From: Streptomyces sp. V3I8
GTDB taxonomy: Bacteria > Actinomycetota > Actinomycetes > Streptomycetales > Streptomycetaceae
Reading direction: 5' to 3'
Assembly: GCF_030817535.1 (NCBI RefSeq)
Contig: NZ_JAUSZL010000003.1
Location: 1 to 64,000, forward strand
Length of the DNA stretch: 64,000 nt
The notes under the pieces were generated by a model that was given only the letters and a program-made list of their open reading frames with translations, was not told the origin of the DNA and ran no database searches. A program made the translations under genes and the position numbers. Below, piece by piece: positions 3,621-45,407 of the stretch. How positions within the stretch are numbered: the stretch's first letter is position 1; every line of letters begins with the position of its first letter.

Positions 3621-3655
3621 CCTCCCAAGGGGTGAGATCTCGACCCCTGGGGAGG
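3621..3655 (+). promoter_or_regulatory. Start-associated AAGGGGTGA hairpin element upstream of the endolysin
   Basis: CCAAGGGGTGA lies at 3625-3635 inside the left arm of an inverted repeat (3621-3633 with 3643-3655, one mismatch). The right arm ends in GGAGG, the Shine-Dalgarno of the ATG at 3661, so the stem would occlude it. Confidence 0.6.
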
Positions 3656-3660
3656 AACCC

Positions 3661-4509
3661 ATGACAGCAACTCCCGACTGGCGCCGCCTGACCGACATCG
3701 TGATGGCCGTCCCGGAGCGCATCTACGAGGGCTGGAACTCCAAGGTCGGCTACAACAACCTCACCATCTTCGGCAAGCAGTACGGCTGGGACGGCGTCGC
3801 CTGGTGCGTCATGTACGACTGGTGCATGTACGAGGACGCCAAGCTGGAGAAGATCGTCCCGAAGGTCGCCTCCGTCTCCGTCTTCACCGACTGGGCGAAG
3901 AGGAACAAGCAGTGGTCGGCGTACCCCTCCGTCGGCGCCTGGGTGAACTTCTCCAACGGCGGCCACACCGAGCTGGTCATCGGCTTCGACGAGACGTACG
4001 TCTACACCAAGGGCGGCAACTCGATCGTGGCCGGGGCCGCCGACGCCGGGCAGGGCAACGGCGTCTGGACCCACAAGACCGAGCGCCGCGCGGCCCGGAT
4101 CGTGGGCTACTTCGCCCCGAAGTTCCCCGACGGCGTCTGCCCGCCCACCGCTGACCCGGCGGACCCTCGCGGCGGCAAGGCCGTGAAGTCCTGGCGCTAC
4201 AGCAAGGCGGCTACCACGCCGTCCACCGGCACCCCGAAGCCGACCCTGCCCGCCTTCCCCGGCCGCTCGTACTTCCTCCTCGGAGCGAAGAACAGCCACG
4301 CCAAGCAGCTGCAGACGTGGCTGGCCAAGGGGAAGTTCGGCCCGGCGTACAAGGTCGGCCCGTCCGAGACCATGTCGCAGATCGACATCGACAAGGTCAA
4401 GGCCCTGCAGAAGCACTTCGTGTCCGCGCTCGGCCCGGCCGACGGCCTCTGCGGCCCGAAGACCTGGCAGTACGCGTTCGAGGTGGCGAACGGCCTGCGC
4501 AAGAAGTAA
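3661..4509 (+). CDS. Endolysin: CHAP-like amidase/peptidase plus peptidoglycan-binding domain
   Basis: Predicted peptidoglycan hydrolase for host lysis, 282 aa. The N-terminal ~170 residues look like a CHAP/NlpC-type cysteine peptidase: candidate catalytic Cys49 in WDGVAWCVMYDWC and His102 in NGGHTELVIGF. After a Pro/Thr-rich linker (about 180-195), the last ~80 residues resemble a PG_binding_1 repeat (AKQLQTWLAKGKFGP, KVKALQKHF, DGLCGPKTW). The ATG is preceded by GGAGG with five-base spacing. No signal peptide is visible, so export probably depends on a holin; the coiled-coil/one-TM protein immediately downstream is the candidate. A strong hairpin follows the stop. Confidence 0.85.
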   Translation: MTATPDWRRLTDIVMAVPERIYEGWNSKVGYNNLTIFGKQYGWDGVAWCVMYDWCMYEDAKLEKIVPKVASVSVFTDWAKRNKQWSAYPSVGAWVNFSNGGHTELVIGFDETYVYTKGGNSIVAGAADAGQGNGVWTHKTERRAARIVGYFAPKFPDGVCPPTADPADPRGGKAVKSWRYSKAATTPSTGTPKPTLPAFPGRSYFLLGAKNSHAKQLQTWLAKGKFGPAYKVGPSETMSQIDIDKVKALQKHFVSALGPADGLCGPKTWQYAFEVANGLRKK

Positions 4510-4521
4510 CCCACCGTGACG

Positions 4522-4556
4522 GCCCCGGATTGCGACCTTTCGCCAATCCGGGGCTT
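4522..4556 (+). terminator. Hairpin terminator after endolysin
   Basis: A perfect 11-bp stem (4522-4532 with 4544-4554, GCCCCGGATTG/CAATCCGGGGC) is followed by CTTTCGC. Confidence 0.7.
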
Positions 4557-4586
4557 TCGCGCTGTCGCGGGCCGAGTCACCACAGT

Positions 4587-4616
4587 CCAAGGGGTGAAGG
4601 ACATATCACCGAGGAG
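4587..4616 (+). promoter_or_regulatory. Start-associated AAGGGGTGA element upstream of the holin-like gene
   Basis: CCAAGGGGTGA at 4587-4597 is flanked by short complementary arms (GTCC/GGAC and GGTGA/TCACC). Shine-Dalgarno GAGGAG at 4611-4616 serves the ATG at 4623. Confidence 0.55.
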
Positions 4617-4622
4617 TTGCGC

Positions 4623-4952
4623 ATGAATCAGCCTGACCCCACGAGTCTGGGCGACCTGTGGACCATGATCCAGCGTGACTCGCAGCTCACCCGTGACGCC
4701 GTGAAAAGAGAACTGGACGACGTAAAGAAGCGTCTGGACACCTTCGTCACGAAGGACCACTTCGAGGCCGAGAAGCGCCTGCTGGAAGCCCGTATCCAGC
4801 ACGCCGAGCAGGCCCTGGCCACCCTGGAGCGAGAAGCCCGGGAGCGCGCCCAGGGCCGGGCGCAGAGCCGCCGGGAGTTCGTCTACAAGGGGATCATCCC
4901 GGCCCTCGCGCTGCTCGTCGCCGTGATCTCCATCATCGTCGCCGCGAAGTAG
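4623..4952 (+). CDS. Holin-like small membrane protein (coiled coil plus C-terminal TM)
   Basis: 109 aa. Residues ~20-90 are highly charged and heptad-like (VKRELDDVKKRLDTF, EKRLLEARIQHAEQALATLE), predicting a coiled coil. The C-terminus is one hydrophobic segment (GIIPALALLVAVISIIVAA). This layout, directly after the endolysin, fits a phage holin or holin accessory of the actinophage lysis cassette. The frame is open upstream, but the ATG at 4623 has GAGGAG at good spacing and lies beyond the endolysin terminator. It could instead be a spanin-like or superinfection membrane protein. Confidence 0.65.
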   Translation: MNQPDPTSLGDLWTMIQRDSQLTRDAVKRELDDVKKRLDTFVTKDHFEAEKRLLEARIQHAEQALATLEREARERAQGRAQSRREFVYKGIIPALALLVAVISIIVAAK

Positions 4953-4979
4953 CCCCTGTCCGCCGGGCCCTGACGAGGG

Positions 4980-5009
4980 CCAAGGGGCGAAGAGAACCCC
5001 CGAGGAGGA
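4980..5009 (+). promoter_or_regulatory. Start-associated AAGGGGCGA element upstream of the SWIM-domain gene
   Basis: CCAAGGGGCGA at 4980-4990. Shine-Dalgarno GAGGAGGA at 5002-5009 serves the GTG start at 5015. Confidence 0.5.
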
Positions 5010-5014
5010 CCACA

Positions 5015-7051
5015 GTGGGCATCCAGCCTGACATCCCGCAGCGTCGCACACACCAGACGCTGGGCGTGCAGCGCCTGGCCGTCCACGCCGAGGACTGGTG
5101 GGACTTCAAGCCGGGCCAGGCGGTCCAGACGACCGACGGCCTGCCGGGCACGGTCAAGGCGGTCCTCGACGGCCCCTTCCCGGGCTCCGAGGAGTACCAG
5201 GTCGAGCTGGACCGGGGCATGGGCGGCGGCGCCTACACGGCCAGCCAGCTGAGCCCCGCGTCGGTCGCCACGGCAGCCCTGGAGCAGACGGCGGCGGCGG
5301 ACTATCCCGAGCTGGCCCAGATCCTCACCGAGCGGCCGGACCCGGCCGGGGTGCAGGTCTACGCCGCCAAGGGCAACCCCTTCGCCGACAAGGACGACTC
5401 GGACGACGAAGAGCCCGAGGACGACGGCGGCGACGACGACAAGGACGACTCGGACTCCGATGACGATGACGAGGAGGAGGACGACTCCGACGACAAGGAC
5501 GACGACTCCCCGCCGTGGGTGAAGAAGGACGCCGCCTCCGTCTTCGCCTCCCTCATCGTCACGGCGGCGGCCGACGCGGACTTCCGCTTCCAGGTCACCT
5601 CCGCCTGGAAGGACGTCGTCACCAAGGCCAAGCGGATCCGCGCCGAGGGCGGCGTCCGCGTCACCCTCGCCTCCGACGGCCTGGTCTTCGCCGAGGTCAA
5701 GGGCGACACCGAGGTCTACGAGGCAGGCCTGCAGCGCCTGCCGAACAAGCAGGCCGTGCACTCCTGGTCGTGCGGCTGCAAGTGGGGCGCCTACCACTGG
5801 GGCGCCGACGACGACTTCAGCAAGTTCTCCGGCCGCATGTGCTCCCACGCGCTGGCCCTGCAGTACGAGGCCCAGTCCCGGGGTATGTTCGGCCGCAACG
5901 TCGGCATCGACGAGACCCGCCCTCACTGGGTCCCCCGCAAGGTCGTCGTCCGCTACGACATCGACGCCGACCAGCACCGCCTCGCACCGTCCACGGCCGC
6001 TCGGCGCGAGGCGGCGGTCAACCCCCACGGCATCTACCTGCGGTTCGGCGACTGGTCGCATGACGAGCGGTCCAACAACAACCTCACGGGCGGCAAGGAG
6101 GACGGGGTCAGCGTCTACGACCTCGACCACAGAGGCAACCCGATGGACCCCGACCCCGAAAATGAGACCGACCACTGGCCGAAGGAGGACATGCACGGCC
6201 GGATAGGGAAGGCTCAGGCTGACAGAAAGTGGGGCGATGACCGGCCCCACCAGCGTGCCCACCTCGTCACTGGCGACCACGTGGGATTTGGCGCAGACAA
6301 CGAGCCCCTTCTGCAGAACGTAGAGCGCGTCGGCGACTGGATGGACCACAGGCACCACTTCATCCCAGAAGCCAACCCGCACCCCCTCGCCCGCAGCGAG
6401 GACCACGAAGACTACGAGCCGCCGGAGGTGCCTCCCAGGCATACCCACGTAGCGATCCTGGCGTCACCCCCACTCGACATCGCAGCCCACTCAACCGTGG
6501 CGGCCGGTGAGACTCGGGAGGAGGTCGAGCTGGCGCTGGGCGCGATTGGGGTGACTGCCTCGGTCGACAGCCCCTTCGGGGAGCCGTCCGGCACCGCCTA
6601 TCAGCTGCCGAAGGCGCCGGGTGCGACGTCGCCGAAGTTCCCCTGGGAGAACCCCGCCTCGGCCGGTCCGCTTGCGGCGGCCGACCCGGTGGGCTGGAAC
6701 CGGCGGCTGCCGCTGGAGTCGTTCGCGGCGCTGGACGACCAGCACTCGATTTTCGAGCCCGGCGGCACGGAGGCCGAGCTGAACGAGGAGCCGGAGGGCG
6801 CGCTGCCGTCCACGGACGGCGTGCAGCTCCCCTCCGACGACGAGGCACTGTCGCCGTCCATCGTGGCCGGGGCCGGTCTGCAGCGCCACGCGCTGAAGGA
6901 CTTCACTCTCGCCCAGCGCGAGGAACTCATCAACGAGGGAGAGGGGGTCCGGGCCGCCAACCTGGACCTGCTGAAGATCGAGGGCACCCACTACGCCGAC
7001 CTGGAGAGCATCCTGGCGGCACAGGAGGACGACACCACATGGCTGAGCTGA
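5015..7051 (+). CDS. SWIM zinc-finger virion-type protein with an atypical internal domain
   Basis: 678 aa, function not recognised. Visible parts: an N-terminal domain; a very acidic Asp/Glu run at ~128-166; a SWIM-type zinc finger (CGC at 253-255, then MCSH at ~276-278); a block (~345-490) beginning GIYLRFGDWSHDERS that reads like an inserted domain; and a Pro/acid-rich C-terminus ending with IEGTHYADLES. Codon choice in 6040-6470 (CTT, AGG, GTA, ATA, AGA) differs from the flanks, supporting insertion. The GTG start has GAGGAGGA seven bases upstream. SWIM fingers bind DNA or protein. The position between lysis genes and the capsid block suggests a head-associated or injected protein, but this is inference. 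Confidence 0.6.
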   Translation: MGIQPDIPQRRTHQTLGVQRLAVHAEDWWDFKPGQAVQTTDGLPGTVKAVLDGPFPGSEEYQVELDRGMGGGAYTASQLSPASVATAALEQTAAADYPELAQILTERPDPAGVQVYAAKGNPFADKDDSDDEEPEDDGGDDDKDDSDSDDDDEEEDDSDDKDDDSPPWVKKDAASVFASLIVTAAADADFRFQVTSAWKDVVTKAKRIRAEGGVRVTLASDGLVFAEVKGDTEVYEAGLQRLPNKQAVHSWSCGCKWGAYHWGADDDFSKFSGRMCSHALALQYEAQSRGMFGRNVGIDETRPHWVPRKVVVRYDIDADQHRLAPSTAARREAAVNPHGIYLRFGDWSHDERSNNNLTGGKEDGVSVYDLDHRGNPMDPDPENETDHWPKEDMHGRIGKAQADRKWGDDRPHQRAHLVTGDHVGFGADNEPLLQNVERVGDWMDHRHHFIPEANPHPLARSEDHEDYEPPEVPPRHTHVAILASPPLDIAAHSTVAAGETREEVELALGAIGVTASVDSPFGEPSGTAYQLPKAPGATSPKFPWENPASAGPLAAADPVGWNRRLPLESFAALDDQHSIFEPGGTEAELNEEPEGALPSTDGVQLPSDDEALSPSIVAGAGLQRHALKDFTLAQREELINEGEGVRAANLDLLKIEGTHYADLESILAAQEDDTTWLS

Positions 7052-7458: not shown

Positions 7459-7465
7459 CCCGAAC

Positions 7466-7508
7466 ACGACGAAGGCCCTCCCCATCGGATGGGGAGGGCC
7501 TTCGTCGT
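7466..7508. terminator. Bidirectional terminator between convergent operons
   Basis: A perfect 21-bp inverted repeat (7466-7486 with 7488-7508) with almost no loop sits between a plus-strand stop at 7458 and a minus-strand stop at 7513. Arms carry the GAAGGCCC/GGGCCTTC core typical of actinobacterial terminators. Confidence 0.85.
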
Positions 7509-7512
7509 ACGG

Positions 7513-10068: not shown

Positions 10069-10215
10069 TCCGTTCACTGGCAGGAAGCAGACAGACGGAC
10101 GGATGGGGGCAGGGTGACGGTCGCGACGCATGAGGCGGACACCTCTCCGTTCCTGTCCAGGAGCGGAGTTGCGACGGCAGGGAGTGAGACCACTCACTCG
10201 GCCCGAGGAGCACTC

Positions 10216-10539
10216 GTGGTGCAGACCCCCGCAGTCGTCCGTACGATCACCCCCGTCATCGCGGGTGGGATCATCTCCTTCTTCGCCGCCCGTGGCGTCC
10301 AGGTCGACGGCATCGGCCGCGACTACCTGGCGTCCGGCCTCACGATCGTGATCACGGCCGCGTACTACCTGATCCCGCTCGTGCTCGAATCTCGCTGGCC
10401 CAAGATCGGCGTCCTGCTCGGCTCCACCGCCAGGCCGATGTACCCAGGACGACACCGTAGGGCCAGCCCCAGTCCGGCGACCGCCACGTCGGACAGCTCC
10501 GGAAGAACAGCCGTAGACCGCCAACTGCCGCTGAAGTAG
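10216..10539 (+). CDS. Small two-TM membrane protein
   Basis: About 107 aa, not firmly recognised. After QTPAVVRTITPVIAG there are two hydrophobic stretches (TPVIAGGIISFFAARG; YLASGLTIVITAAYYLIPLVL) followed by a basic, Ser/Pro-rich tail. Chosen start GTG 10216 (or 10219) because GAGGAG lies just upstream; the frame opens at GTG 10114, whose leader shows no conservation-like features. It is divergent from the XRE gene and possibly under the TTGACA promoter. Such proteins in actinophages are sometimes called holin-like, but a superinfection-exclusion role is equally possible. Confidence 0.55.
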   Translation: MVQTPAVVRTITPVIAGGIISFFAARGVQVDGIGRDYLASGLTIVITAAYYLIPLVLESRWPKIGVLLGSTARPMYPGRHRRASPSPATATSDSSGRTAVDRQLPLK

Positions 10540-10599: not shown

Positions 10600-10837
10600 C
10601 TCATGTGCAGCGGGAGAGGGCTGCTCTCGTCTCGATAACGGCGCCGGGGCCGAGAGGTAGCGGCTTCTTCGCTGCAGATTCTCGACGGGATGTCCGGTGG
10701 CCGGATCAGGCCCGCCAATACGTTAACACCGGCCTTACGTAATTCCCCGAGGGGCTCCGTCCTCTCCACGGCTCCTACACAAACCACGTCTGCCCTCAAT
10801 ACGCAGATGCATGCCGTCCTGTTCAGAACCGTTTGAA
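10600..10837. other. Gene-free stretch before the prohead protease
   Basis: No supported gene. Less GC-rich than its surroundings, with ACGTTAACACC and TTACGTAATTCC patches that could hold the late promoter for the capsid block. A minus-strand open frame crosses it but lacks a credible start and runs through the terminator hairpin. Confidence 0.4.
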
Positions 10838-10887
10838 CCTCCTCAAGGGGCGAGGGCGCACCATGCGCCGCCGCCCGCTCAGGAGGA
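10838..10887 (+). promoter_or_regulatory. Start-associated AAGGGGCGA hairpin element upstream of the prohead protease
   Basis: TCAAGGGGCGA at 10843-10853. CCTCCT (10838-10843) can pair with the Shine-Dalgarno AGGAGG (10881-10886) seven bases before the GTG start at 10894. Confidence 0.55.
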
Positions 10888-13800: not shown

Positions 13801-14001
13801 CTGATGTGCGGCAGCTGCGGCTTCGCGGCCGACGCCACCCCGCCCCAGAGCCAGAACATGGGCGACCCCATGGCGTCCACCGACGGCGTGGTCGACGGCG
13901 ACGTCTGCCCCAGCTGCCAGCGCGGCCAGCTGCTGACCCCCGGCGAAGTCAACTCGACCTATTCCCAGGCTCCTGCTGTTGAGCGTCCCGCCTACAGCTG
14001 A
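10894..14001 (+). CDS. Prohead/capsid maturation protease with inserted ADP-ribosyltransferase-like and DUF7178-like domains
   Basis: 1035 aa, far larger than a plain prohead protease. Residues 1-210 look like a serine-type capsid protease: His in KPVFVNHKNDN, Ser in IDRTSMGCDVE, and a CSACGN...YCAHI metal site. A Glu/Pro linker follows. Residues ~325-430 (VSIYRAVPQHI, INQGDWVSTHGNWTQERA, WHVLHARVPARHVHVD) resemble phage-borne ADP-ribosyltransferase-like domains. Residues ~435-690 (WYSDAHHVARSI, GAGVLSAYSPQQNWWANQ, VVVDRHALSVAAGRR) resemble DUF7178. The C-terminal third is acidic/Pro-rich with zinc ribbons (CPVCGDKD...CQICGF; CGSCGF...CPSCQRG). It sits directly upstream of scaffold-like and capsid genes. 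GTG start with AGGAGGA. Assignments of the inserts are by pattern only. Confidence 0.7.
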   Translation: MLKFATAQIIAASLGDQQRVTKAAHRAVFQYDARPGYLYVRSRAISSRCNDNWDEFPADEIAASYRTFVGKPVFVNHKNDNHRRSRGVIIDAALHEDKNPDGSADTWAEVLMEIDAKNFPKLAKAILKGEIDRTSMGCDVERSVCSACGNVATTPAEYCAHIPGLKGKRIFRHTASGQRVGELVRETCYGLSFFENSVLVEPPADPTAHFLGVDSSGLGKAASKAAAIDFSEFDHEDDLKEEPDEEENKAHTPTPASQPAQHPAPAAPRVPNEGTAHDTQRRRDVVTQSKPFEPLKPSLNTLQAEAGSYRVDHEAPTAETGHPLHEVSEHAPDDHVSIYRAVPQHISEINQGDWVSTHGNWTQERADSSKGWHVLHARVPARHVHVDRTSKDTDEAGYQGPSLRGPGVGRSTHGGEWDQGRLFEGSRKTAAGPQFENPADHPWFKQAKLSHEHVLNHWNQATDEEKKQGARWYSDAHHVARSIAKLNPDITDDKEAAHKGAGVLSAYSPQQNWWANQHNAARSFVDKKAVGKGEGLMVMSSHANAAQRIMDGEDHQKVLKGPKTADFAHLIEHAGNKPQGDEDAAAGKPREHSDKVVVDRHALSVAAGRRLSADDSKGFPSGNRHYYEHAASHFRTAAAVISDREGRKVAPHEVQATTWLTRQRLNASEDENSPGGKGRQTVQRNQREQWRGLAGEHTPHLQDEGNSHVATVIDATCIDHDGTIRAEAYGEVKAPQDVDTLREENCPVCGDKDTYDGQSCQICGFISPPAQFRDPDLDMAKRLDLRKQVVDPSLVDNNGELQRVDEGGDAMPQDGQDPNAPVDPNDPTAQGDPNDPNSQLMDPDQLDENGLPPSPYGDQALDGTQQGPAVSDRNGDGMIQPHEIDMDGNANVQQDVVDPGQGGQAGPRELPGWGKDRTGDSFTPGPDMPYRPDDPSNPNDTLGQDDDDRDQMGMPTSPMMGRPGDGIADLMCGSCGFAADATPPQSQNMGDPMASTDGVVDGDVCPSCQRGQLLTPGEVNSTYSQAPAVERPAYS

Positions 14002-14056
14002 CAAGGGGTGAAGACCGCCCACGGTGCCCGCCGTGAGCGCCCGTCTCAGAAGGAGA
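14000..14056 (+). promoter_or_regulatory. Start-associated AAGGGGTGA element upstream of the scaffold-like gene
   Basis: GACAAGGGGTGA at 14000-14011 overlaps the protease stop region. Shine-Dalgarno AAGGAG near 14050-14055 serves the ATG at 14062. Confidence 0.5.
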
Positions 14057-14964: not shown

Positions 14965-15022
14965 TGTACCCGGCGCAGAAAATTCCTTGCCAACTCTCCC
15001 TGTCTCGTACCCATCAGCCGCC

Positions 15023-15076
15023 CGTAGGGGGTGAAAGCGGCCTGCCGGTCCTGGCAGCCAGCCGAGACACAGGAGG
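15023..15076 (+). promoter_or_regulatory. Start-associated AGGGGGTGA element upstream of the decoration-like gene
   Basis: CGTAGGGGGTGA at 15023-15034, then a small CTGCC/GGCAG hairpin and Shine-Dalgarno AGGAGGG before the ATG at 15085. Confidence 0.5.
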
Positions 15077-16719: not shown

Positions 16720-17093
16720 GTGCCTGCCATACCTTGGGGGTGGGCCGCCACGGTTAGCTCGGGGTCTTCGTCTGTGCAGGCGGACGGACGAACCTCGCGA
16801 GCCCCTCACCCCCGAGGGGGTAAGGGGATCACTCGATGGCGCGCTGTGGGCTGGTCATCTCGGCGGGTGACATGTTTTCACTCTGACACATTCGCAGCAC
16901 GATGTGTAGTCGATCTCTCCATTTTAGTAGCCCTGCGATTGTTTTTAGCCAACCTGCTGTCCCCGGGCGCGTCGCCCGCCTTAGGGGGTGAGGGTTTGTG
17001 GTGGGCCCTCGTGCGGCTCCGTTCTCCGGCCGCCCACTCAACCCCCGGACTCCCTTCCGGGGGTTGAGTGCTGTCCGGGGGCCGGTGGCGCCA
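16720..17093. other. Gene-free region between the capsid and neck modules
   Basis: No supported gene across about 430 bases. It holds degenerate copies of the start-associated motif (TAAGGGGATCA near 16820 beside an ACCCCC/GGGGGT hairpin; TTAGGGGGTGA at 16981-16991) without a long following gene, an unusually A+T-rich stretch (about 16860-16950) and a terminator-like hairpin at 17036-17069. It may be the scar of lost genes plus a promoter. Confidence 0.45.
17036..17069 (+). terminator. Perfect 14-bp hairpin ahead of the neck operon
   Basis: 17036-17049 pairs exactly with 17056-17069 (ACTCAACCCCCGGA/TCCGGGGGTTGAGT), loop CTCCCT. Confidence 0.65.
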
Positions 17094-17104
17094 CCAAGGG
17101 GTGA
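17094..17104 (+). promoter_or_regulatory. Start-associated AAGGGGTGA element upstream of the first neck gene
   Basis: CCAAGGGGTGA directly follows the palindrome GGTGGCGCCACC. The ATG at 17147 has its own GGAGG at 17137-17141. Confidence 0.5.
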
Positions 17105-17146
17105 CGGATGGCTTCGTGTCCTCATCCCCTAGTTCTGGAGGCAGTC

Positions 17147-17533: not shown

Positions 17534-17540
17534 CCCACGC

Positions 17541-17855: not shown

Positions 17856-17869
17856 GAGAGGGGGCTGCG

Positions 17870-18994: not shown

Positions 18995-19020
18995 CTTGCT
19001 GTTCAGGCGCCGCCTGCTGG

Positions 19021-19031
19021 CCGAAGGGGCG
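19021..19031 (+). promoter_or_regulatory. Start-associated AAGGGGCG element (variant)
   Basis: CCGAAGGGGCG lies 25 bases before the ATG at 19057, the same distance as in the endolysin and holin elements. Confidence 0.4.
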
Positions 19032-19056
19032 GAAGGCGACCGCGAGGAGACAAGGC

Positions 19057-22252: not shown

Positions 22253-22303
22253 GGAGGACGTGCCCCATCCCTGAGACACGTTCGGAGCCTAGCACTGTCC
22301 ATG

Positions 22304-22336
22304 CCCTCCCGGTCGCCCGAAGAGGTGACGGGAGGG
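22304..22336 (+). promoter_or_regulatory. Start-associated hairpin (AGAGGTGA variant)
   Basis: CCCTCCC (22304-22310) pairs with GGGAGGG (22330-22336). The loop carries CCGAAGAGGTGA, a variant of the motif. The right arm is the Shine-Dalgarno for the ATG at 22344. Confidence 0.5.
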
Positions 22337-22343
22337 CGTTGTC

Positions 22344-23072: not shown

Positions 23073-23233
23073 GGGTGTTGGGGACTTTTTGGCGAGCCGT
23101 ACCCTAACGCTTCGCTGTCGCCCGGCGGACCGAGAGGTGGGCGGCTGCGTCCGTTGGCCGTGAGTCCCACTGCGCGGCTGAAGGTGCCCCAACTGCGGCT
23201 AAGCACCGGCAGGCTACCACGCGTGAGCCTGTC

Positions 23234-23275
23234 CGCCCCTTCTCCCGCGCCCCAAGGGGTGACGGAGGAGAGGCG
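23234..23275 (+). promoter_or_regulatory. Start-associated AAGGGGTGA hairpin upstream of the tail-terminator-like gene
   Basis: A 12-position stem (23234-23245 with 23264-23275, eleven pairs including one G-U) surrounds the loop containing CCCAAGGGGTGA (23251-23262). The right arm is the GGAGGAG ribosome site for the GTG at 23279. Confidence 0.6.
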
Positions 23276-23278
23276 CAC

Positions 23279-23914
23279 GTGTATGTGACCAGGGTCAAGA
23301 CGCTGCCGATCGAGGCGCTGCACGCGGCGTTCGACGATCAGTACCCCGTGGCGGAGTTCCGGGGGCTGCACTGCAGCCTGGAGTATCCCGTGCGGGCGGT
23401 GAACCTGCCCGAGGTGTGGGTGCGCTACTCCGACTCGGCGCCGCTGCGGCAGTCCGGCGTCGCGCACGTCGAGGACGAGCACCCGGTCTCCGGCGGGAAG
23501 ATCGAGCCGTACACCCGCTGGCGTTTCGAGGGCTCGTGGGAGTTCGTGGTGGTGGCGCTCTCCAGCGTCGAGCGGGACCGGGTCTACGACGAGCTGATCT
23601 CGACCATCGCCTGGAGCGGCTTCGACACGGTGCGCGGCCGGTTCCGCAAGTACCTGGAGACCAACGACCTGATCGACCTGACCGTGCGTACGGACCAGAT
23701 CGAGTCGACCGGCGAGAACGCGGAGCCCGGCACGCCGTGGGGTACGGACGAGGTGCTGTACGAGCGGACGCTGAACGTTGACCTGATCGGCGACTTCGTG
23801 CCGAACCCGCAGACCGGCGTCATCGTGCCCCTGTCCAGGATCCAGGTCGTGCCGACGGCGGACCTCTCTCTCGACACCGAGGCGCGCGGCGAGGGCTTCG
23901 ACGCCTGGCACTAG
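23279..23914 (+). CDS. Tail terminator-like protein
   Basis: 211 aa, assigned by position and texture. An N-terminal PIEALHAAFDDQYP and alternating strands (VWVRYSDSAPLR, RWRFEGSWEFVVVALSSVERDRVYDELISTIAW) resemble phage tail-completion/tube-terminator proteins that lie between gp10-like and sheath genes. GTG start with GGAGGAG. Its stop codon shares the tetranucleotide CTAG (23911-23914) with the stop of the convergent minus-strand gene. Confidence 0.6.
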   Translation: MYVTRVKTLPIEALHAAFDDQYPVAEFRGLHCSLEYPVRAVNLPEVWVRYSDSAPLRQSGVAHVEDEHPVSGGKIEPYTRWRFEGSWEFVVVALSSVERDRVYDELISTIAWSGFDTVRGRFRKYLETNDLIDLTVRTDQIESTGENAEPGTPWGTDEVLYERTLNVDLIGDFVPNPQTGVIVPLSRIQVVPTADLSLDTEARGEGFDAWH

Positions 23915-24546: not shown

Positions 24547-24620
24547 GGCCGCCAAGCACTCCGTTCACCATCGTTGTGGGCCAAAACTAGCAGGGGTTGC
24601 TGTCCGTCAGGACCACTTCG

Positions 24621-24633
24621 CCCCAAGGGGTGA
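24621..24633 (+). promoter_or_regulatory. Start-associated AAGGGGTGA element upstream of the tail sheath
   Basis: CCCCAAGGGGTGA at 24621-24633. GCTGTC near 24599 can pair with GACAGC at 24632-24637. ATG 24662 is 28 bases downstream. Confidence 0.55.
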
Positions 24634-26268: not shown

Positions 26269-26291
26269 GCTGTCCGCTGCCGCGCTGCCCG

Positions 26292-26313
26292 CCGTAGGGG
26301 GTGAGACCTACGG
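26292..26313 (+). promoter_or_regulatory. Start-associated AGGGGGTGA hairpin upstream of the tail tube
   Basis: CCGTAGG (26292-26298) pairs perfectly with CCTACGG (26307-26313). The motif GTAGGGGGTGA spans stem and loop. The ATG at 26328 follows a GGGGTGGTG ribosome site. Confidence 0.6.
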
Positions 26314-26327
26314 ATGGGGTGGTGAGC

Positions 26328-31570: not shown

Positions 31571-31666
31571 CGGTCCTCTCATGCTTCGCGGGCCCGAGGA
31601 GACCAGTTGGATTCACCAGCAAGGTAAGAATCCGCTGCAAACCTATCAGCGCCTGTGTTTCAGCGT

Positions 31667-31695
31667 CCACCTCCGACCCCAAGGGGCGGAGGTGG
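31667..31695 (+). promoter_or_regulatory. Start-associated AAGGGGCGGA hairpin at the hub gene start
   Basis: A perfect 9-bp stem CCACCTCCG (31667-31675) / CGGAGGTGG (31687-31695). The loop is ACCCCAAGGGG, whose CCCC/GGGG can extend the stem. The right arm holds the GGAGG sequence and an in-frame GTG. Confidence 0.65.
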
Positions 31696-36557: not shown

Positions 36558-36658
36558 GATGGTCCCTTCCTTGGCGGGCTCGTTGTGCTGCCCCATCCTG
36601 CCGCAAGATCTGGCTCCATAGGTGCAGCTGCTCATGTCTCGGCCCGCCGTCGCGTCCT

Positions 36659-36669
36659 TCAAGGGGCGA
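36659..36669 (+). promoter_or_regulatory. Start-associated AAGGGGCGA element upstream of gp25
   Basis: TCAAGGGGCGA is followed at once by GGAGG and the ATG at 36681. CCGCC (about 36643) and GGCGG (about 36676) flank it as a possible stem. Confidence 0.5.
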
Positions 36670-36680
36670 GGAGGTGGCGG

Positions 36681-37109
36681 ATGAAGACTCTGGCGCTCGT
36701 GGGCGGCGACCTGGCCCCCGGGGATGGCGGATACCGGTTTCTGACCGGTGCCCCACGGCTGCGGCAGGACCTGGCGCTCGCGCTGGCGGAGCCGTACGGC
36801 CATGACCCGTACCACCCCGAGTACGGGTCGGTGCTGGCGTCGTACATCGGTGAGCCGTTGACGGCTGAGCTGGAGTTGCTCGTGCGCGCCGAGGTGGTGC
36901 GGGTGGTACAGCAGTACGTCGCGGCGCAGCAGGCGAGCATCGCGGCCGACTCCCTGTCGGGCTCGCGCTCGCGCTACTCCTTCCAGGACGTCGTGAAGAA
37001 CGTCAGGTCCATCACGACCGAGATCAAGTACGACGTGCTCAAGGTCGCAGTCTCGCTCACCACGGAGTCCGGGGCGACGGTCAAAATCCTGCGGACGGTG
37101 GACGTGTAA
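36681..37109 (+). CDS. gp25-like baseplate wedge protein
   Basis: 142 aa, usual gp25/GPW size. Features include LRQDLALALAEPYGHDPYHPEYGS, the typical 'fl...GtrpyhPeyGs' segment of gp25-like proteins, then LEVLVRAEVVRVVQQYV-type helix and a C-terminal beta strand pair (YDVLKVAVSLTTESGATVKI). ATG 36681 with GAGGAGG. It overlaps the J-like gene start by one base (TAATG), as in many myophages and contractile particles. Confidence 0.82.
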   Translation: MKTLALVGGDLAPGDGGYRFLTGAPRLRQDLALALAEPYGHDPYHPEYGSVLASYIGEPLTAELELLVRAEVVRVVQQYVAAQQASIAADSLSGSRSRYSFQDVVKNVRSITTEIKYDVLKVAVSLTTESGATVKILRTVDV

Positions 37110-40293: not shown

Positions 40294-40309
40294 GTACTGT
40301 CCGTGTCCT

Positions 40310-40340
40310 CTCCTCGGCCTGCAAGGGGTGAGCCGAGGAG
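40310..40340 (+). promoter_or_regulatory. Start-associated AAGGGGTGA hairpin upstream of the giant tail protein
   Basis: A perfect 9-bp stem CTCCTCGGC (40310-40318) / GCCGAGGAG (40332-40340) encloses the 13-base loop CTGCAAGGGGTGA. The right arm overlaps GGAGG, the ribosome site of GTG 40347. Confidence 0.7.
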
Positions 40341-40346
40341 GAACCC

Positions 40347-43300
40347 GTGGCAGACCTGTATCCGAACTACGCTGCTCTGGCCGCTGCCCGCCAGATCGGT
40401 GTGGACTACCGGCTGCTGGTCCGCACCCCGGCGGGCTCGCGGCTGGCGCATCTGGCCATCCACGGTGGCGGCATTGAGCCGGGCACCACTGAGGTCGCGG
40501 ACTACCTGGCCGGGTCGGCCAGCCGCTTCTACAGCTTCGACGCGATGCTCGCCTCGGGCAACGCCGACCTGCACCTGGCCAGCACTGCTTTCGACGAGCC
40601 GCAGGCCCTGGAGCTGGTCTTCGCCAGCGACTTCGTCATCTCCTGGCACGGCGCGGCCGGGGACGAGCCGATCACCTACATCGGCGGCCTGGATACCGAT
40701 ACGGGCACGCGGATCAAGGAGACGCTGGAGCAGGCCGGGTTCGCGGTCGGGGCGACGCCGACGGAGATCGGCGGGAGCAGCCCGGACAACATCGCCAACC
40801 GGGGCGCCCGCGCGGTGGGCGTACAGATCGAGATGACGGCCGCTCTGCGCCAGTCGTTCTTCGAGGACTTCACCCGCGTGGGCCGGGACAGCGGGGCCCG
40901 GACGTCAGATTTTTACACCTATACGACGGCGATACGGACCGCGCTCAACGGGCTGGATGTCCCGGGCAAGGCCCTGGGGGCCGTGTGGCGTGACCGGATT
41001 GCCCGGCCGGTCAAGGGCACGGGCTCGGTCTCCGGCGACTTCGGGATCCCGGCTCTTGCCCCGCTGACCGTGGACGGCATGCCCCTGGACGCGGTCAAGG
41101 ACGCTCTGCGCCTGCAGGTCAACAACCGGCAGGTCAACAGCAGCAGCGGAGAACGGTTCTGGTCGAGCGAGCCACGGGCCAACGGTGACCGGCTGCGTGA
41201 GGTGTACGAGTTCAGCTTGACCTCGGAGAGGCCGGTCAACCGCCTGTCATTCTCTCTGGCGCGGTTCCCTCAGCGGGCCTGGGTGCAGTGGCGTGACCGG
41301 GACGGGGTGTGGCATCCGCTCACGCATGCCCGGACGCGGGCGCCGGTGATGCTGAGCATCATCGACTCGTTGCCCGCGATCATCCCGACCGGCGTGCCGG
41401 ATGACTCCAAGCTGCACCCGCAGCACTTCGGGGCCGGGCACTGGATGCCCCAGCTGGTCGATGTTGCCCCGGTCAACTCCTCCCGGTTCCGGATCATCAT
41501 GACCCGGTTGCCCTCCTCGTCGGCGCCGGTGGGCACGGACGGGCAGCCGGTGCCCTACTCGCTGGGAGTCAGGGACGCGCAGGTGTCCTACCGTGCGGCG
41601 TCCCTGAACGACCTGCCGTGGCTGCCCCAGACGGATGCCGAGTACACCGCGCCGATCACCGGGTCAACCGACCTGCTGGGCTCGCAGATCGAGTACACGG
41701 TGCGGCGCAACCGGGCCTCGAACCTGCTGCCTCCGGCCCAGGGGGTGTGGCGCTGCGCTCCGCAGCCGGTCCCCAACGCCGTGGTCAGCCTGCACCTCGA
41801 TCTGCGGAACGCGGCGGGAAAGCCGCAGGTGATTGACCGGCTGTACGTGGACCCGGTGACCTCGGGCCCCTCGGTCAACCTCTACTACACGGACGACACG
41901 ACTGTCCCCGAGAGATTCGCGCCGTCAAGCACGGCGTTGACCCTGCCGCTGGTGCGCCCGTCGGCCGAGTTGCCCGTGGCGGACGGCGAGGGCGTGCTGT
42001 TTGACCACGTGCGCTCCTACCTGGACGTGGACAACCGGGCCTGCCAGTTCACCCCGTCCAGGGCGTTCCTGCTGGCCATGGTGGTCCACCCGCAGTTCAC
42101 CTCCGACGACCCGGGTCAACACACGGTCCTGGACGCCGGGCAACTGTCGGTCACGTTCTCCGGCGGCCTGCTGATTGTCCGTCTCGGTGACCGTCAGGTC
42201 GAGATGGACCCGGTCACCTTCGGGGTCAACGCCGCAGTTCCCCTGGCAATCGCGTACGACGGCACCCTGTTGACCGTGCGGACGCCGTGGGGGCGCCGGG
42301 AGCAGCAGGACATCCACCTGCCGCTGGACCCGCCGGGGACGCTGCGCCTGGGCGGGCCGCTGACGGGCGAGGGCGGGGCACTGCGGATCCGGAGCCTGCT
42401 CCTGGCCCAGGGCCGGGCGGCCGACGTCGAGACGATCGAGGCGTACTGGGACGACCCGGCCGGGTACGCGATGCCGCCGGGGCTGGATGGCGACGAGACG
42501 CAGCACACGAGCGCCAGCGCGATCCTGCGGATGGACCCCAGCCTGATCACGCCCGGCGTGGAGTCGGTGTGCCCGTGGGGGCTCATCGGCGGCCCGGCGA
42601 TCTGTTACGACACGCAGGTGTGGACGCCGGTGCCGGGCGACTTCACGCTGCGCAAGGGGCTCTTCAAGTTCCGGCCGATCAAGGCCGCGCACGTGAAGAT
42701 GGAGTTCACCAACCTCGCGCCGATCGTGCTGACGCCGTCCCAGGCGATCCCGATCGTGAGGACGAAGCTGTACCCGGCGGACTCCGGCCGGGGGAACATC
42801 GTGGCCCGGTCGGCGGGCGAGGAGTCCGGGGCGCTGCCGACGGGGGCCCGGGTCGCCACGGAGCAGGGGGCGGTGTACCGGTACGTCGATGCCAGGAACG
42901 TGACGGAGGCCGGGCCGTCGGCGGCGTACCTGCCTACGGAGGCGCTGTACGCGCCGGATCCGCTGGACGCGCAGGTGCTGCGCCGCTCGGGCCAGCGCTT
43001 CCCGTATCAGCCGCTGCCGGGTACGACGGCGCCGCGTTTCACGAGCACGGGCGTGCACCACTACCGGGTGGCCGAGCTGGCCATGGACACCAAGGTCGGC
43101 TACACCGTGGCGCTGGCCCAGGTACTCGCCTACGCCTCCGACCCGATCGCGCAGCGGGACACAGAGCAGTACGTGGATCTCTTCCACGACACGGCCTACC
43201 TGTCGGGGTACTCGGACAGCGACCCGAACGGCTGGCGGCACAACGGCGAGGCGATGGTGACGCACGAGCAGCCGCCGTGGCTGGGTACGCGGATCATGTC

Positions 43301-44525
43301 GAAGACACTCGTGTCCAAGCGCCGGGTGCTCGCCGTGCAGTTCGCGGCGCAGGCCTCCGATCCCAAGCAGCTGGCGCGCGACCCCGATTTCGACGACGAG
43401 TCCCTGCACTTCTGGCGGCCGGTGGGCGATGCGACGATCGAGTCGTCGTCGCGGTACTCGGCCTCCATCGGCCGCATGGCCCAGGTGACCCGGGGCCATG
43501 CGTCGTCCTCCTGGGGTGCGCTGGAGCAGCAGTTCCCGACGTGGGGCGACATCGAGGAGTCGGACCCGCTGCCGAACCGGCCGCTGTGGTACGAGGTGGA
43601 GAACTCCACCGTCGAGGCCAGCAACGGCGGCATCGAGTCTCTGCGGCCGGTGACCCCGGCGCCGGGCGGGCGGCTGTACGCGGCGGCCCGCGTCTACACC
43701 GAGGGCCCGCTGGCGCAGCCGCTGCGGCTGCAGCTCGTCAACGGCGACGGCCGGATCCTCGCGGAGGCCGAGCAGGTCATCGACTCGGCGCAGGTCGTGG
43801 AGTGGTACGTCGGCGCGACGATCCGCACCGGCAACCCGGTCGGCATGCCCTCATGGACTTCGGTCGAGGCGCTGGGCTCCTGGGCGCAGGTGGAGGCCGT
43901 CGGCTCCTGGGGCGATGTCTCCCAGGACTGGGGCATCGACAACGTCTACGACGTCCGGGTCCGGCTCGTCCAGGAGGGCACGGCCGGGACCGGGCAGTGG
44001 CTCACGGACTCCCTGGCGATCTACAACGACCCGCTGGTGTGGGAGGTCTCCAGGGACGGCGGCCTGACCTGGCACGAGATGGTCTCGATCCGCAACAACC
44101 CGCGCGGCGTCTTCACGTTTCCTGACCTGGAGCCGACGGACCGCACCGGCGGCACGCAGCTGCGCTGGCGGGTGACCGGCTACTCGGCCGGGCTGTCGAT
44201 CTCCTCCATGGTGCTGCGGCCCTGGTACGCGACGCTCTCGGGCGCGGTGCCCTACCTGGACACGCTGCAGGCGGCCGGGGCGGCGACGTCGCTGGCGGAC
44301 TACTACCCGGCGATCGAGTCCGACCCGCTGTTCCAGGGGTGGCAGCACCCGATCCCGCAGGAGTGGTGGCTGGCGGCCCGCCAGTGGCTCCAACAGACCT
44401 ACCCGCCCACCGGCCCGCTGCCCCCGATCACACTGCCGGAGGCCGTGGCCGAGGGCACCGACGAGGGCAGCCCGCCGTCGGCCGCGCGGCACACCCTGCC
44501 GAACGCCTTCGTCCTCAACCGCTAA
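40347..44525 (+). CDS. Giant tail protein with N-terminal poly-gamma-glutamate hydrolase domain
   Basis: 1392 aa. The first ~190 residues match phage poly-gamma-glutamate hydrolases (PF05908): LYPNYAALAAARQIGVDYRL, IHGGGIEPGT (His39, Glu44), NADLHLASTAFDEP (His76), ISWHGAAGDEP (His101), TYIGGLDTDTG. These zinc enzymes degrade gamma-PGA capsule. The rest contains beta-sandwich modules, including a LamG/concanavalin-like region near 550-700 (FLLAMVVHPQF, IAYDGTLLTVRTPWG). GTG start with GGAGG. Word and codon use up to about 42280 is unlike the remainder. Likely a tail-borne depolymerase/adhesin. Confidence 0.75.
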   Translation: MADLYPNYAALAAARQIGVDYRLLVRTPAGSRLAHLAIHGGGIEPGTTEVADYLAGSASRFYSFDAMLASGNADLHLASTAFDEPQALELVFASDFVISWHGAAGDEPITYIGGLDTDTGTRIKETLEQAGFAVGATPTEIGGSSPDNIANRGARAVGVQIEMTAALRQSFFEDFTRVGRDSGARTSDFYTYTTAIRTALNGLDVPGKALGAVWRDRIARPVKGTGSVSGDFGIPALAPLTVDGMPLDAVKDALRLQVNNRQVNSSSGERFWSSEPRANGDRLREVYEFSLTSERPVNRLSFSLARFPQRAWVQWRDRDGVWHPLTHARTRAPVMLSIIDSLPAIIPTGVPDDSKLHPQHFGAGHWMPQLVDVAPVNSSRFRIIMTRLPSSSAPVGTDGQPVPYSLGVRDAQVSYRAASLNDLPWLPQTDAEYTAPITGSTDLLGSQIEYTVRRNRASNLLPPAQGVWRCAPQPVPNAVVSLHLDLRNAAGKPQVIDRLYVDPVTSGPSVNLYYTDDTTVPERFAPSSTALTLPLVRPSAELPVADGEGVLFDHVRSYLDVDNRACQFTPSRAFLLAMVVHPQFTSDDPGQHTVLDAGQLSVTFSGGLLIVRLGDRQVEMDPVTFGVNAAVPLAIAYDGTLLTVRTPWGRREQQDIHLPLDPPGTLRLGGPLTGEGGALRIRSLLLAQGRAADVETIEAYWDDPAGYAMPPGLDGDETQHTSASAILRMDPSLITPGVESVCPWGLIGGPAICYDTQVWTPVPGDFTLRKGLFKFRPIKAAHVKMEFTNLAPIVLTPSQAIPIVRTKLYPADSGRGNIVARSAGEESGALPTGARVATEQGAVYRYVDARNVTEAGPSAAYLPTEALYAPDPLDAQVLRRSGQRFPYQPLPGTTAPRFTSTGVHHYRVAELAMDTKVGYTVALAQVLAYASDPIAQRDTEQYVDLFHDTAYLSGYSDSDPNGWRHNGEAMVTHEQPPWLGTRIMSKTLVSKRRVLAVQFAAQASDPKQLARDPDFDDESLHFWRPVGDATIESSSRYSASIGRMAQVTRGHASSSWGALEQQFPTWGDIEESDPLPNRPLWYEVENSTVEASNGGIESLRPVTPAPGGRLYAAARVYTEGPLAQPLRLQLVNGDGRILAEAEQVIDSAQVVEWYVGATIRTGNPVGMPSWTSVEALGSWAQVEAVGSWGDVSQDWGIDNVYDVRVRLVQEGTAGTGQWLTDSLAIYNDPLVWEVSRDGGLTWHEMVSIRNNPRGVFTFPDLEPTDRTGGTQLRWRVTGYSAGLSISSMVLRPWYATLSGAVPYLDTLQAAGAATSLADYYPAIESDPLFQGWQHPIPQEWWLAARQWLQQTYPPTGPLPPITLPEAVAEGTDEGSPPSAARHTLPNAFVLNR

Positions 44526-44534
44526 GGAGCACCC

Positions 44535-45317
44535 GTGCGCGCGCACTTCAACCGCCCTCTGACCGACCGGGAGGGCAACCAGATCGACGAGGCCGTGGTG
44601 CGCCTCCTGGTGACGGGCAGCACCACGGAGCTGATCTCCGACATCGTCTACTCCCAGGCGACGGGAAGCCTGACCCGCACCAACCCGTGGAACATCACCA
44701 ACGGCGAGGTCGACTTCTTCCTGGACGCCCCGGCCCGGCTGCAGATCGGGGTGAAGGTCGGCGCCGACCCGGAGGAGTTCTGGGACAACGTCGACGTGCT
44801 CGCGGTGGCCGCCGAGTCGACGCACCCGGGCACCGGGGAGGGCTCCATGTCGATCGGCACCGGCGCCGTGGCCTCCGGCACCGGTGCCATGGCGCTGGGA
44901 GCGGCGACGCTGGCGGACGCGGACGCGGTGACCGTCATCGGATATCAGGCCTCGGGCTCCCAGGCGGGCTCTACGGCCATCGGGGCGCAGGCCTCGTCCA
45001 CGGAGGCCGGAGGGCTGGCGGTCGGCCAGTCAGCGCTCGCCCAGGGCCTGCAGGCGGCTGCTCTGGGCAGCGGTGCGCAGTCCGTGTGGGACCAGGCCAC
45101 CGCCGTTGGCGCGGGCGCCCAGACGACCCGGCCGAACCAGGTAGTCCTGGGCACCGATGTCGACCTGGTCGACATCCCCGGTGCGGCCGTCCTGCACAGC
45201 CCGGACGGGACTCCGTTCCTGCTGCAGGTCGCCGACGACGGCACCCTGTTCACTCAGCAGCTGGCGCCCTACGTGGTCGAGGAGCTGCCGGACGGGCCGC
45301 CGGACGAGATCCTGTAG
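44535..45317 (+). CDS. Tail fibre protein with YadA-head-like repeats (short paralogue)
   Basis: 260 aa. The N-terminal ~95 residues (NRPLTDREGNQIDEAVVRLLV, VDFFLDAPARLQIGVKVG) form a beta domain shared in pattern with the next tail proteins. Residues ~105-205 are tandem YadA-head-like units (MSIGTGAVASGTGAMALG, STAIGAQASSTEAGGLAVG, ATAVGAGAQ), which build left-handed beta-rolls in trimeric adhesins. GTG start nine bases after the previous stop, with GGAG. Likely an adsorption fibre segment. Confidence 0.7.
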   Translation: MRAHFNRPLTDREGNQIDEAVVRLLVTGSTTELISDIVYSQATGSLTRTNPWNITNGEVDFFLDAPARLQIGVKVGADPEEFWDNVDVLAVAAESTHPGTGEGSMSIGTGAVASGTGAMALGAATLADADAVTVIGYQASGSQAGSTAIGAQASSTEAGGLAVGQSALAQGLQAAALGSGAQSVWDQATAVGAGAQTTRPNQVVLGTDVDLVDIPGAAVLHSPDGTPFLLQVADDGTLFTQQLAPYVVEELPDGPPDEIL

Positions 45318-45325
45318 CCACCTCG

Positions 45326-45350
45326 AACTGAGACCCATGGGTCTCACTTT
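45326..45350 (+). terminator. Palindromic terminator-like repeat, copy 3 (hybrid)
   Basis: Same GAGACCCATGGGTCTC core (45330-45345). The left flank CCTCGAACT matches copy 2 at 34.8 kb, the right flank ACTTTT matches copy 1. Nine bases after a stop codon. Confidence 0.7.
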
Positions 45351-45352
45351 TG

Positions 45353-45407
45353 CTGTGCCTGCCTCTCTCTGCGCCGCCAAGGGGTGACGAGAGGGAGGTA
45401 GGCACAG
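45353..45407 (+). promoter_or_regulatory. 18-bp start-associated hairpin sequestering the ribosome site
   Basis: 45353-45370 pairs with 45390-45407 (16 Watson-Crick and two G-U pairs). The 19-base loop holds CCAAGGGGTGA (45377-45387). The right arm contains GGGAGG and touches the GTG start at 45407. Confidence 0.75.

Follow-up and report, generated by a model that had tools for sequence, protein, structure and literature searches.

A candidate two-box late promoter, partly overlapping predicted ribosome-binding-site-hiding hairpins, on a phage-like element of Streptomyces sp. V3I8

Long early transcripts of bacteriophage T4 gene e (lysozyme) form an inhibitory structure, and transcripts from its late promoter, which are without the 5' portion of that structure, are well translated (PMC3014915). 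In cluster K phages, the start-associated sequence (SAS) is the 13-bp repeat GGGATAGGAGCCC; it occupies the position of the ribosome-binding site (RBS), 3-7 bp from the start codon, within the non-structural half of these genomes (PMC3203893). Microbacterium cluster EC phages, which encode a sigma factor, carry 18-bp intergenic repeats (TAGaCTCTaGGTgTaAgC) 21-30 bp upstream of starts (PMC7302621). Little is known about how large actinobacterial myoviruses transcribe their late genes, and few late promoters of mycobacteriophages have been characterized according to a 2022 review (PMC9262239); a further article, PMC10986025, concerns an unrelated cluster CA phage. Here we describe a recurring motif upstream of the late genes of contig C3 (NZ_JAUSZL010000003.1, 157,951 bp) in the 9.32-Mb genome of Streptomyces sp. 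V3I8, in which the window, i.e., the whole stretch of DNA that was analysed, comprises bases 1-64000 (64,000 nucleotides). C3 is a myovirus-like (phage-like) element of circa 150-160 kb that is probably maintained as a plasmid in its Streptomyces host. From the sequence, the motif is predicted, with a probability of roughly 0.74, to be the downstream half of a two-box late promoter, a subset of which carries a hairpin lock and the reader of which is most likely a sigma-region-4-like protein encoded by C3.

Similar to T4 gene e and I-TevI (PMC3014915), the C3 promoter is predicted to lie, at a subset of genes, over the 5' arm of an RBS-hiding hairpin, and an endolysin gene is among its users. 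A promoter over the 5' arm combined with an RBS in the 3' arm is predicted at 8 of the 20 scored C3 late genes and not at the other 12, and hairpin control of a lysis gene is predicted both for the endolysin gene of C3 (3661-4509) and for gp98 of Rhodococcus phage E3. Unlike the T4 late promoter TATAAATA (PMC3014915), which the C3 consensus does not match, the C3 promoter would consist of two GC-rich boxes, would operate in other phages and hosts, and would serve several structural genes; the C3 case is a prediction. The C3 motif resembles the cluster K SAS and its extended form (ESAS) in being a short asymmetric repeat, mostly in one orientation, upstream of starts, with inverted repeats at about half of the copies (PMC3203893), but it has a different sequence, lies 11-59 nt from the start with a separate Shine-Dalgarno (SD) sequence, precedes late genes, and has a second box at a fixed distance. 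The kinship in concept with cluster K that the initial annotation proposed is thus not borne out, because the SAS is a different thing by its distance of 3-7 bp from the start, its RBS position, and its half of the genome. The cluster EC repeats likewise share one orientation upstream of starts, in a sigma-encoding phage of actinobacteria; unlike the C3 motif, they form one contiguous box, 7 of their 12 copies stand among non-structural genes, and a hairpin lock is unmentioned in the available parts of the article (PMC7302621). A two-box late promoter of the C3 type was not found in the titles, abstract openings, and article parts searched, which covered few subscription journals.

The motif is enriched in the window. 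Exact CCAAGGGGYGA is present in seven copies, all on the + strand, whereas 100 dinucleotide shuffles gave a mean of 0.12 copies and none reached seven; the motif noticed by the initial annotation is therefore real, although it proved to be half of a two-box element, the upstream box of which that annotation had missed. On C3 as a whole, 13 exact copies of CAAGGGGYGA (box B) were observed, all on the + strand, 11 of them in the window and the others at 150022 and 155226. At 12 of these 13 sites, CTGT (box A) begins 24-26 nt upstream of box B, and at 9 of them box A extends to CTGTYC; given a base rate of 0.0024 per base for CTGT, the nominal binomial probability for 12 of 13 is 3e-25. C3 and the other 9.16 Mb of the genome each hold nine copies of the combination CTGTYC-N16-20-AAGGGG, so that its density is 58-fold higher on C3. 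The spacing is also fixed in relatives, which were represented by 80 IMG/VR loci that surround the head protein gene (1.02 Mb in total; 62 groups once loci sharing >30% of 21-mers were collapsed): distances of 25, 26, and 27 nt from CTGTY to AAGGGG were found in 9, 116, and 9 cases on the + strand, respectively, and all remaining distances of 5-60 nt, on either strand, in at most 4 cases each. These loci include close relatives, e.g., L024 with 96% head protein identity, and are partly redundant, so that the 134 spaced box pairs are not 134 independent events. The consensus is CTGTCy-N18-20-CAAGGGGTGA, which can also be written as gCTGTCy - 18 to 20 nt - (C/G)AAGGGGTGA or CTGTCy-N18-20-SAAGGGGTGA. 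In an unsupervised motif search of 20 more distant IMG/VR loci (L074 without gene calls), GAAggg.tga was recovered at 111 of 168 leaders, many of them weak matches, with CTGTC upstream at some by eye.

A two-box matrix was derived from 160 sites of the relatives and none of C3, the sites being chosen by pattern and the box spacing limited to 24-28 nt. It identified 26 distinct sites with scores of at least 14 on C3 (29 rows before the merging of neighbours), all of which are on the + strand, vs 0.9 per genome in simulated sequence; the best minus-strand score was 11.0. The window holds 18 of the 26 sites, which include all 16 cores listed in the initial annotation and two extra ones near 10179 and 16983, and the weak match that had been noted near 60285 in the replication block is no site, its score being below the listing threshold of 8. 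Except for 66675 (inside a gene), 16983, and 99245, the sites are intergenic and at most 60 nt from a start (23 of 26). The distance between box A and box B is 25-27 nt (standard deviation 0.7, within the 24-28 nt that the matrix permits), and that from box B to the start codon is 11-59 nt (standard deviation 12, 22 of 26 sites measured). A separate SD lies downstream of the motif at 20 of 21 sites checked; gene 26319 has no recognisable SD. The genes that follow include matches to endolysin, tail sheath, baseplate, protease, terminase, and portal proteins, and beyond the window the sites precede homologs of the E3 terminase (85154) and the E3 portal protein (155261). With early and late status assigned from gene content, the earlier statements that the motif marks the late genes, is often in an SD-sequestering hairpin, and may be a late regulator site hold. 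Another genus of the family has a C3-like contig (G573:C8) with 17 sites of at least 13 in 60 kb, all on the late-gene strand, although parts of it were in the training set as L043 and it is not fully independent. Upstream of orthologs, the strict pattern was observed before at least one deduplicated ortholog for 16 of 17 promoter genes and before at least half of the orthologs for 11 of 17; in orthologous promoters both boxes are kept, and the spacer sequence varies.

The distance between the boxes is fixed, the distance to the start is variable, and nearly all sites have a separate SD, which argues for a promoter rather than a ribosome-binding element, and the spacing of the boxes is near that of -35/-10 elements, which also points to a promoter. 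Box A would take the place of the -35 element and box B would lie around -10, with transcription starting a few bases past AAGGGGTGA. The predicted targets of the promoter are genes for head, tail, baseplate, and packaging proteins and for lysis; they have short leaders and, with few exceptions, an SD of their own. For the same reason, i.e., a partner box at 25-27 nt with the start at 11-59 nt and a separate SD, the start-associated translational element resembling an anti-SD complement that had been suggested is rejected, as is a standby element.

Sigma-70 region 4 binds the -35 box and the polymerase flap; in T4, gp33 is a sigma-4-like protein, and the T4 late promoters have no known counterpart of box A. 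The candidate reader is a 127-residue protein encoded in the replication block (C3:80792-81175, L017:16792-17175), which matches Sigma70_r4_2 with an E-value of 4.8e-5. It is a weak homolog of E3 gp160 (25.6% identity, E 2e-5 in a search among 185 called proteins) and lies inside a run of collinear neighbours; gp160 is annotated as 'putative RNA polymerase sigma-70 factor, region 4' and is related to gp201 of Mycobacterium phage Myrna (42.6%), and both phages thus have a positional counterpart of the C3 protein. A search with E3 gp160 gave 207 phage records, and 37 of the 40 listed are named hypothetical only, whereas the C3 protein as a direct query matched no phage record. Counting the C3 protein itself, 74 members of its own family are listed; the longest contig measures 150-158 kb for 20 of them, and 49 carry PF08281 in the database's own annotation. 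The given names point to Streptomyces. Within the genus, 10 of 199 sampled genomes have a match, which is strong only in G000 and amounts to 34-40% identity over the region-4 part in the other nine. The protein would act with host RNA polymerase and perhaps with a further partner. The small sigma-region-4-like protein encoded with the replication genes is comparable to the T4 late sigma gp55, which acts with gp33 on host RNA polymerase (PMC3014915). Unlike in the case of gp55/gp33, no region-2 partner was seen with Pfam among 39 of the approximately 185 C3 proteins, and C3 offers box A for region 4. A full-length sigma factor on C3 was rejected as a candidate since, at E 0.001, all 57 matches of PF04542 and all 81 of PF04545, for which 150 of 361 candidates were scored, are on other contigs of the genome; the PF04545 search also overlooked the 127-residue protein. 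A search for a single-subunit RNA polymerase with PF00940 gave no match, and none in its controls either.

The leading alternative, which we consider less likely, is that the late promoter is recognized by the host RNA polymerase and one of the host sigma factors, aided by a phage activator on box A, MotA-like or WhiB-like, in which case box B would be a degenerate -10 element and the sigma-4-like protein would be employed otherwise. MotA acts at T4 middle promoters, and WhiB proteins act through region 4 of the primary sigma factor. C3 encodes a 217-residue protein with an N-terminal WhiB domain (C3:64356-65009, L017:356-1009; PF02467, E 9.3e-8), which is a second candidate regulator, and E3 has an annotated WhiB-like gp75; in addition, the TAGGGG variants of box B at 15026, 16983, 26296, and 153863 are nearer to a TAnnnT -10 element. 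Promoters of the HrdB/SigA type recognized by the host primary sigma have a -10 hexamer of the TAnnnT type and a -35 hexamer like TTGAC. The late class differs at both positions: the core of the matrix is AAGGGG (160 relative sites), with TAGGGG in few copies; most box B copies lack both conserved T positions, and box A is CTGTCy. Host-type promoters look otherwise on C3. A second class before approximately 17 genes at about 91-141 kb (about 91533-141100, L018-L020) consists of a TAGACA/TTGCAA-like box, the 18-nt palindrome gcgcACTGATCAGTGCgc as spacer, and TAGGTT, and resembles early promoters of the host type under a common operator. Because this other class looks host-type, the late class appears to have a different specificity.

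At a subset of the late promoters, including that of the endolysin gene, the sequence separating the two boxes shows complementarity to the region around the SD that immediately follows box B. RNA reading through from upstream would fold, which would hide the SD and silence the gene, and RNA initiated at the promoter, without the 5' arm, would be translatable; with box B at -10, the 5' arm would not be transcribed in the late mRNA, and folding would be limited to the longer RNA. The net effect would be a transcription-linked early/late translational lock, as in T4 gene e. The read-through RNA was compared with the predicted own transcript, taken to start 13 nt after the first base of the core, and with a shuffled-spacer control for 20 late genes of C3 (31692 and 146688 were not entered). 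The SD is hidden (unpaired probability at most 0.03) in the read-through RNA at eight genes, namely, 3661, 10894, 22344, 23285, 40347, 45407, 85154, and 150049, and the corresponding values in the predicted own transcript are 0.23, 0.44, 0.79, 0.96, 0.56, 0.88, 0.57, and 0.60, respectively, with shuffled-spacer values of 0.06-0.25. In orthologs, the SD of hairpin genes (n = 55, selected on related arm-swap data) is unpaired at 0.19 in read-through, 0.29 with a shuffled spacer, and 0.61 in the own transcript, vs 0.33, 0.34, and 0.43 for other genes (n = 90). Pairing of the spacer, examined at 107 deduplicated sites, is stronger with the downstream region of the same site than with those of other sites (mean stem 5.15 vs 4.51; 0 of 5000 permutations), and stems of at least 7 were found at 17.

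The hairpin of the endolysin gene (3621..3655, CCTCCC/GGGGAGG) has the end of the promoter spacer as its 5' arm and the SD in its 3' arm; the SD is unpaired at 0.00 in read-through, and the fold z score is only -1.5. The hairpin GCCCTCCCG/CGGGAGGGC of gene 22344 surrounds box B at 22303..22337 (SD 0.00 in read-through and 0.79 in the own transcript), and a different stem stands at the same place in relatives. That of gene 23285 (23231..23279) also surrounds box B and covers the SD (0.00 and 0.96), with a negative arm-swap test (p 0.68, n 4). Upstream of gene 40347, box B lies in the loop of CTCCTCGGC/GCCGAGGAG at 40310..40340 (SD 0.02 and 0.56; own vs swapped arms p 0.007), the inner end of which is CTCAGC/GCTGAG in L126. 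Gene 45407 has a long imperfect hairpin, GTGCCTGCCTCTCTC/GAGAGGGAGGTAGGCAC, at 45355..45405 with box B at its tip (SD 0.00 and 0.88; fold z -7.8 and -7.7; own vs swapped arms p 0.009). All five of these hairpins are on the + strand. Seven SD hairpins had been named in the initial annotation, of which those at 3621, 22304, 23234, 40310, and 45353 were confirmed with SD values of 0.00-0.02 in read-through and that at 31667 is strongly folded (z -5.8 and -4.3); at 26292, the inverted repeat is visible by eye, but no SD was found by script and the z score of the whole leader is +1.2.

Swapping of arms among orthologs of one gene supports covariation for 19057 (p 0.005), 40347 (0.007), 45407 (0.009), 22344 (0.024), and 24662 (0.031), uncorrected for 16 tests. 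Folding is stronger in the leaders of promoter genes (n = 23, mean z -1.58) than in those of other genes (n = 56, mean z -0.49; rank test p 0.008). As an observation apart from the promoters, strongly folded leaders (z about -6 and -7) also occur at 58886 of the window and at C3:149174, before genes without a late promoter, and could be terminators.

A further explanation, which we hold to be quite improbable, is an RNA element, in which box B in a hairpin loop would be bound by a translational regulator or serve as a ribosome standby site and box A would be part of the same RNA. Box B is indeed in or near the loop at the hairpin genes, and AAGGGGTGA resembles AAGGAGGTGA. However, 12 of the 20 scored sites have no clear SD-hiding fold, and the box A distance of 25-27 nt is kept there; the variable distance to the start and the separate SD likewise argue against such an element.

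Several results weigh against the promoter reading with its hairpin lock and its proposed reader. The 127-residue protein scores 23.4 bits, which is under the Pfam cut-off of 25.7, and the region-2 partner is missing in the Pfam scans mentioned above. The strict pattern is absent from many of the more distant IMG/VR loci and is found in approximately one-fourth or fewer of the orthologs of genes 14062, 15085, 31692, 36681, and 26319; the low counts at 31692 and 36681 are largely explained by changes in box A (GTGT or other), box B being still visible by eye in most. There is no clear SD lock at 12 of the 20 scored late genes, and four of these genes (10216, 17147, 24662, and 99553) have a more accessible SD in read-through RNA than in the predicted own transcript. 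At 150049, the shuffled spacer hides the SD nearly as well (0.06), and the value of 0.23 for the own transcript of the endolysin gene is low, although it is 0.79 with a shorter coding part. The covariation in stems that the initial annotation had looked for holds for the five gene sets above; the arm swap gave no support at the other 11 of 16, several of which lean the opposite way (pooled p 0.096), and in the pair count on six 22344 sequences, three pairs have changes on both sides, a count attained by 53 of 500 shuffles as well, in part because the C3 stem is in another register. The leaders of promoter genes stand out in the rank test, but a z score below -2 is not clearly more frequent among them (7 of 23) than among those of other genes (8 of 56; Fisher p 0.12). 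Finally, the half-motif by itself is not enriched in the window when matched loosely, with 41 matches vs 52.4 expected in shuffles at two mismatches, and 15 vs 10.6 for CAAGGGGYGA at one mismatch. That a GC-rich genome yields such G-runs and pyrimidine/purine arms unaided, as these loose counts and the mean arm energies of several gene sets, which equal those of shuffled spacers, might suggest, is nevertheless refuted for the two-box motif by the seven exact copies vs 0.12, the spacing peak, the strand exclusivity, the placement before orthologs, and the comparison of own and swapped arms, which makes chance a negligible explanation overall, and it stands for single hairpins where the arm-swap test gave no support.

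The 18 candidate sites of the window, all on the + strand, are given here from box A to box B with the number of deduplicated orthologs that show the strict pattern. The first, 3602..3635 (CTGTCC to AAGGGGTGA), precedes the endolysin gene 3661-4509 (phrog_9589, E 3.8e-26; 4 of 7 orthologs) and is followed by 4562..4597 before gene 4623-4952 (6 of 7) and 4956..4990 before gene 5015-7051 (5 of 5). The site at 10153..10187 before gene 10216-10539 (score 17.7; 8 of 10), which was not in the earlier list, has a degenerate box B, CAGGGAGTGA; such copies are credible because box A is present upstream. Gene 10894-14001, which matches a head maturation protease (phrog_18299), has its site at 10819..10853 (25 of 33), gene 14062-14919 at 13976..14011 (14 of 53), and gene 15085-15585, upstream of the major head protein gene, at 15000..15034 with the variant core TAGGGG (score 18.7; 13 of 58). 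The promoter-like site at 16957..16991 (TTAGGGGGTGA core, score 18.2), also absent from the earlier list, is uncertain, as it lies 164 nt before gene 17147; the site proper of that gene (17147-17533) is 17071..17104 (18 of 19). Further sites were found at 18999..19032 for gene 19057-19719 (17 of 20), at 22295..22328 with the core AAGAGG for gene 22344-23072 (score 22.4; 5 of 10), at 23229..23262 for gene 23285-23914 (3 of 9), at 24600..24633 for the tail sheath gene 24662-26191 (8 of 9), and at 26270..26304 with the variant core TAGGGG for gene 26319-26831 (score 18.0; 0 of 2). The virion structural protein match 31692-34187 (phrog_2810), the start codon of which is uncertain, is preceded by 31655..31689 with GTGT as box A and an 8-bp stem, CCACCTCC/GGAGGTGG (score 15.7; fold z as given above; 1 of 9 by the strict pattern), and some of its other orthologs have AAGGGGCGGAGG with a GTGTC-like box A (by eye, in part). 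The baseplate gene 36681-37109 (phrog_2669) has ATGT as box A at 36634..36669 (score 17.0; 1 of 13 by the strict pattern), and the last two sites are 40297..40331 for gene 40347-44525, a minor tail protein match (4 of 8), and 45353..45387 for gene 45407-47020 (5 of 5).

Among genes without a C3 promoter, the strict pattern is rare in orthologs: 1 of 46 for 15625, 0 of 25 for 19719, 0 of 18 for 20777, 0 of 8 for 21481, 0 of 5 for 29987, and 0 of 3 each for 27399 and 44535. Gene 21481-22194 of the late block, called with a TTG start, encodes a ThyX-type thymidylate synthase with 49% identity to Myrna gp92. There are two exceptions, i.e., 37109 (6 of 9), because the promoter in relatives lies one gene further on, and 48354 (2 of 7), because two matches of 32-33% identity show the 45407 promoter. 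In relatives L126, L129, L130, L137, L139, and L125, a late promoter with a long SD-hiding hairpin stands immediately before the baseplate wedge gene; the window counterpart, 37109, has none, and its promoter is one gene earlier (36634).

The major head protein of C3 (15625-16614, phrog_2522) shares approximately 59-61% identity with those of Myrna, Bxz1-type phages, Rhodococcus phage E3, and Gordonia phage Skog. The nearest named relatives of C3 are from Streptomyces, namely, the circular 154-kb plasmid pRLB1-9.1 and a 152.5-kb contig of Streptomyces sp. A0642. A contig scan for further hosts of C3-like elements gave one relative, and a search at E 1e-30 in overlapping samples of the genus (392 genomes) and the family (394 genomes) added a single one, apparently the same element as L043. 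Two tyrosine-recombinase-like genes are on the minus strand at approximately 95-102 kb (L018:11196-12029 and 17134-18162), although one relative is a circular plasmid, and a short protein with a partial match to an NMN (nicotinamide mononucleotide) transporter (PnuC-like) is encoded amid recombination genes (L017:12810-13238).

Outside the Streptomyces elements, the evidence for the promoter is suggestive. In E3, six TCAAWWGG sequences are all on the + strand and shortly before annotated genes, and two of them have TGTC at 24 nt; in two Myrna genes, CTGTGG and CTGCCA lie 25 nt before GAAGAGG. The annotated E3 endolysin gp98 has a 13-bp stem enclosing TCAATTCGTGA, with SD unpaired values of 0.00 for read-through RNA and 0.14 for the predicted own transcript. 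Seven genes of E3, Myrna, LinStu, and Skog were selected because of their stems; the read-through fold hides the SD (0.00-0.01) in all of them except Skog 165, and the own-transcript values are 0.05-0.59. An unsupervised search of E3 alone recovered TCAATAGG-like sites among others; a pooled search of four cluster-C-like phages gave no clean motif, and the relaxed two-box pattern in seven cluster-C-like stretches gave 22 + and 8 - strand matches, few of them before genes, so that the extension to these phages rests on single sites. It is possible, at somewhat less than even odds, that a class of late promoter absent from the articles searched, read via a sigma-region-4-like phage protein with relatives in 207 phage records and in Streptomyces elements, is common to cluster-C-like myoviruses of Streptomyces, Rhodococcus, Mycobacterium, and Gordonia, and that T4's arrangement of late promoters within SD-hiding hairpins evolved in them independently and serves, beyond a single gene, to keep endolysin, packaging, capsid, and tail genes under one general early/late lock.

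For large actinobacterial myoviruses, these results name a specific putative two-box promoter together with its 18 candidate window sites and a possible protein reader, and they predict for every gene where transcription begins and whether read-through RNA is silent. If the prediction is true, it would apparently be an independent case of late promoters within RBS-hiding hairpins, in which a lysis gene is again guarded, and it may provide a late promoter for Streptomyces tools.

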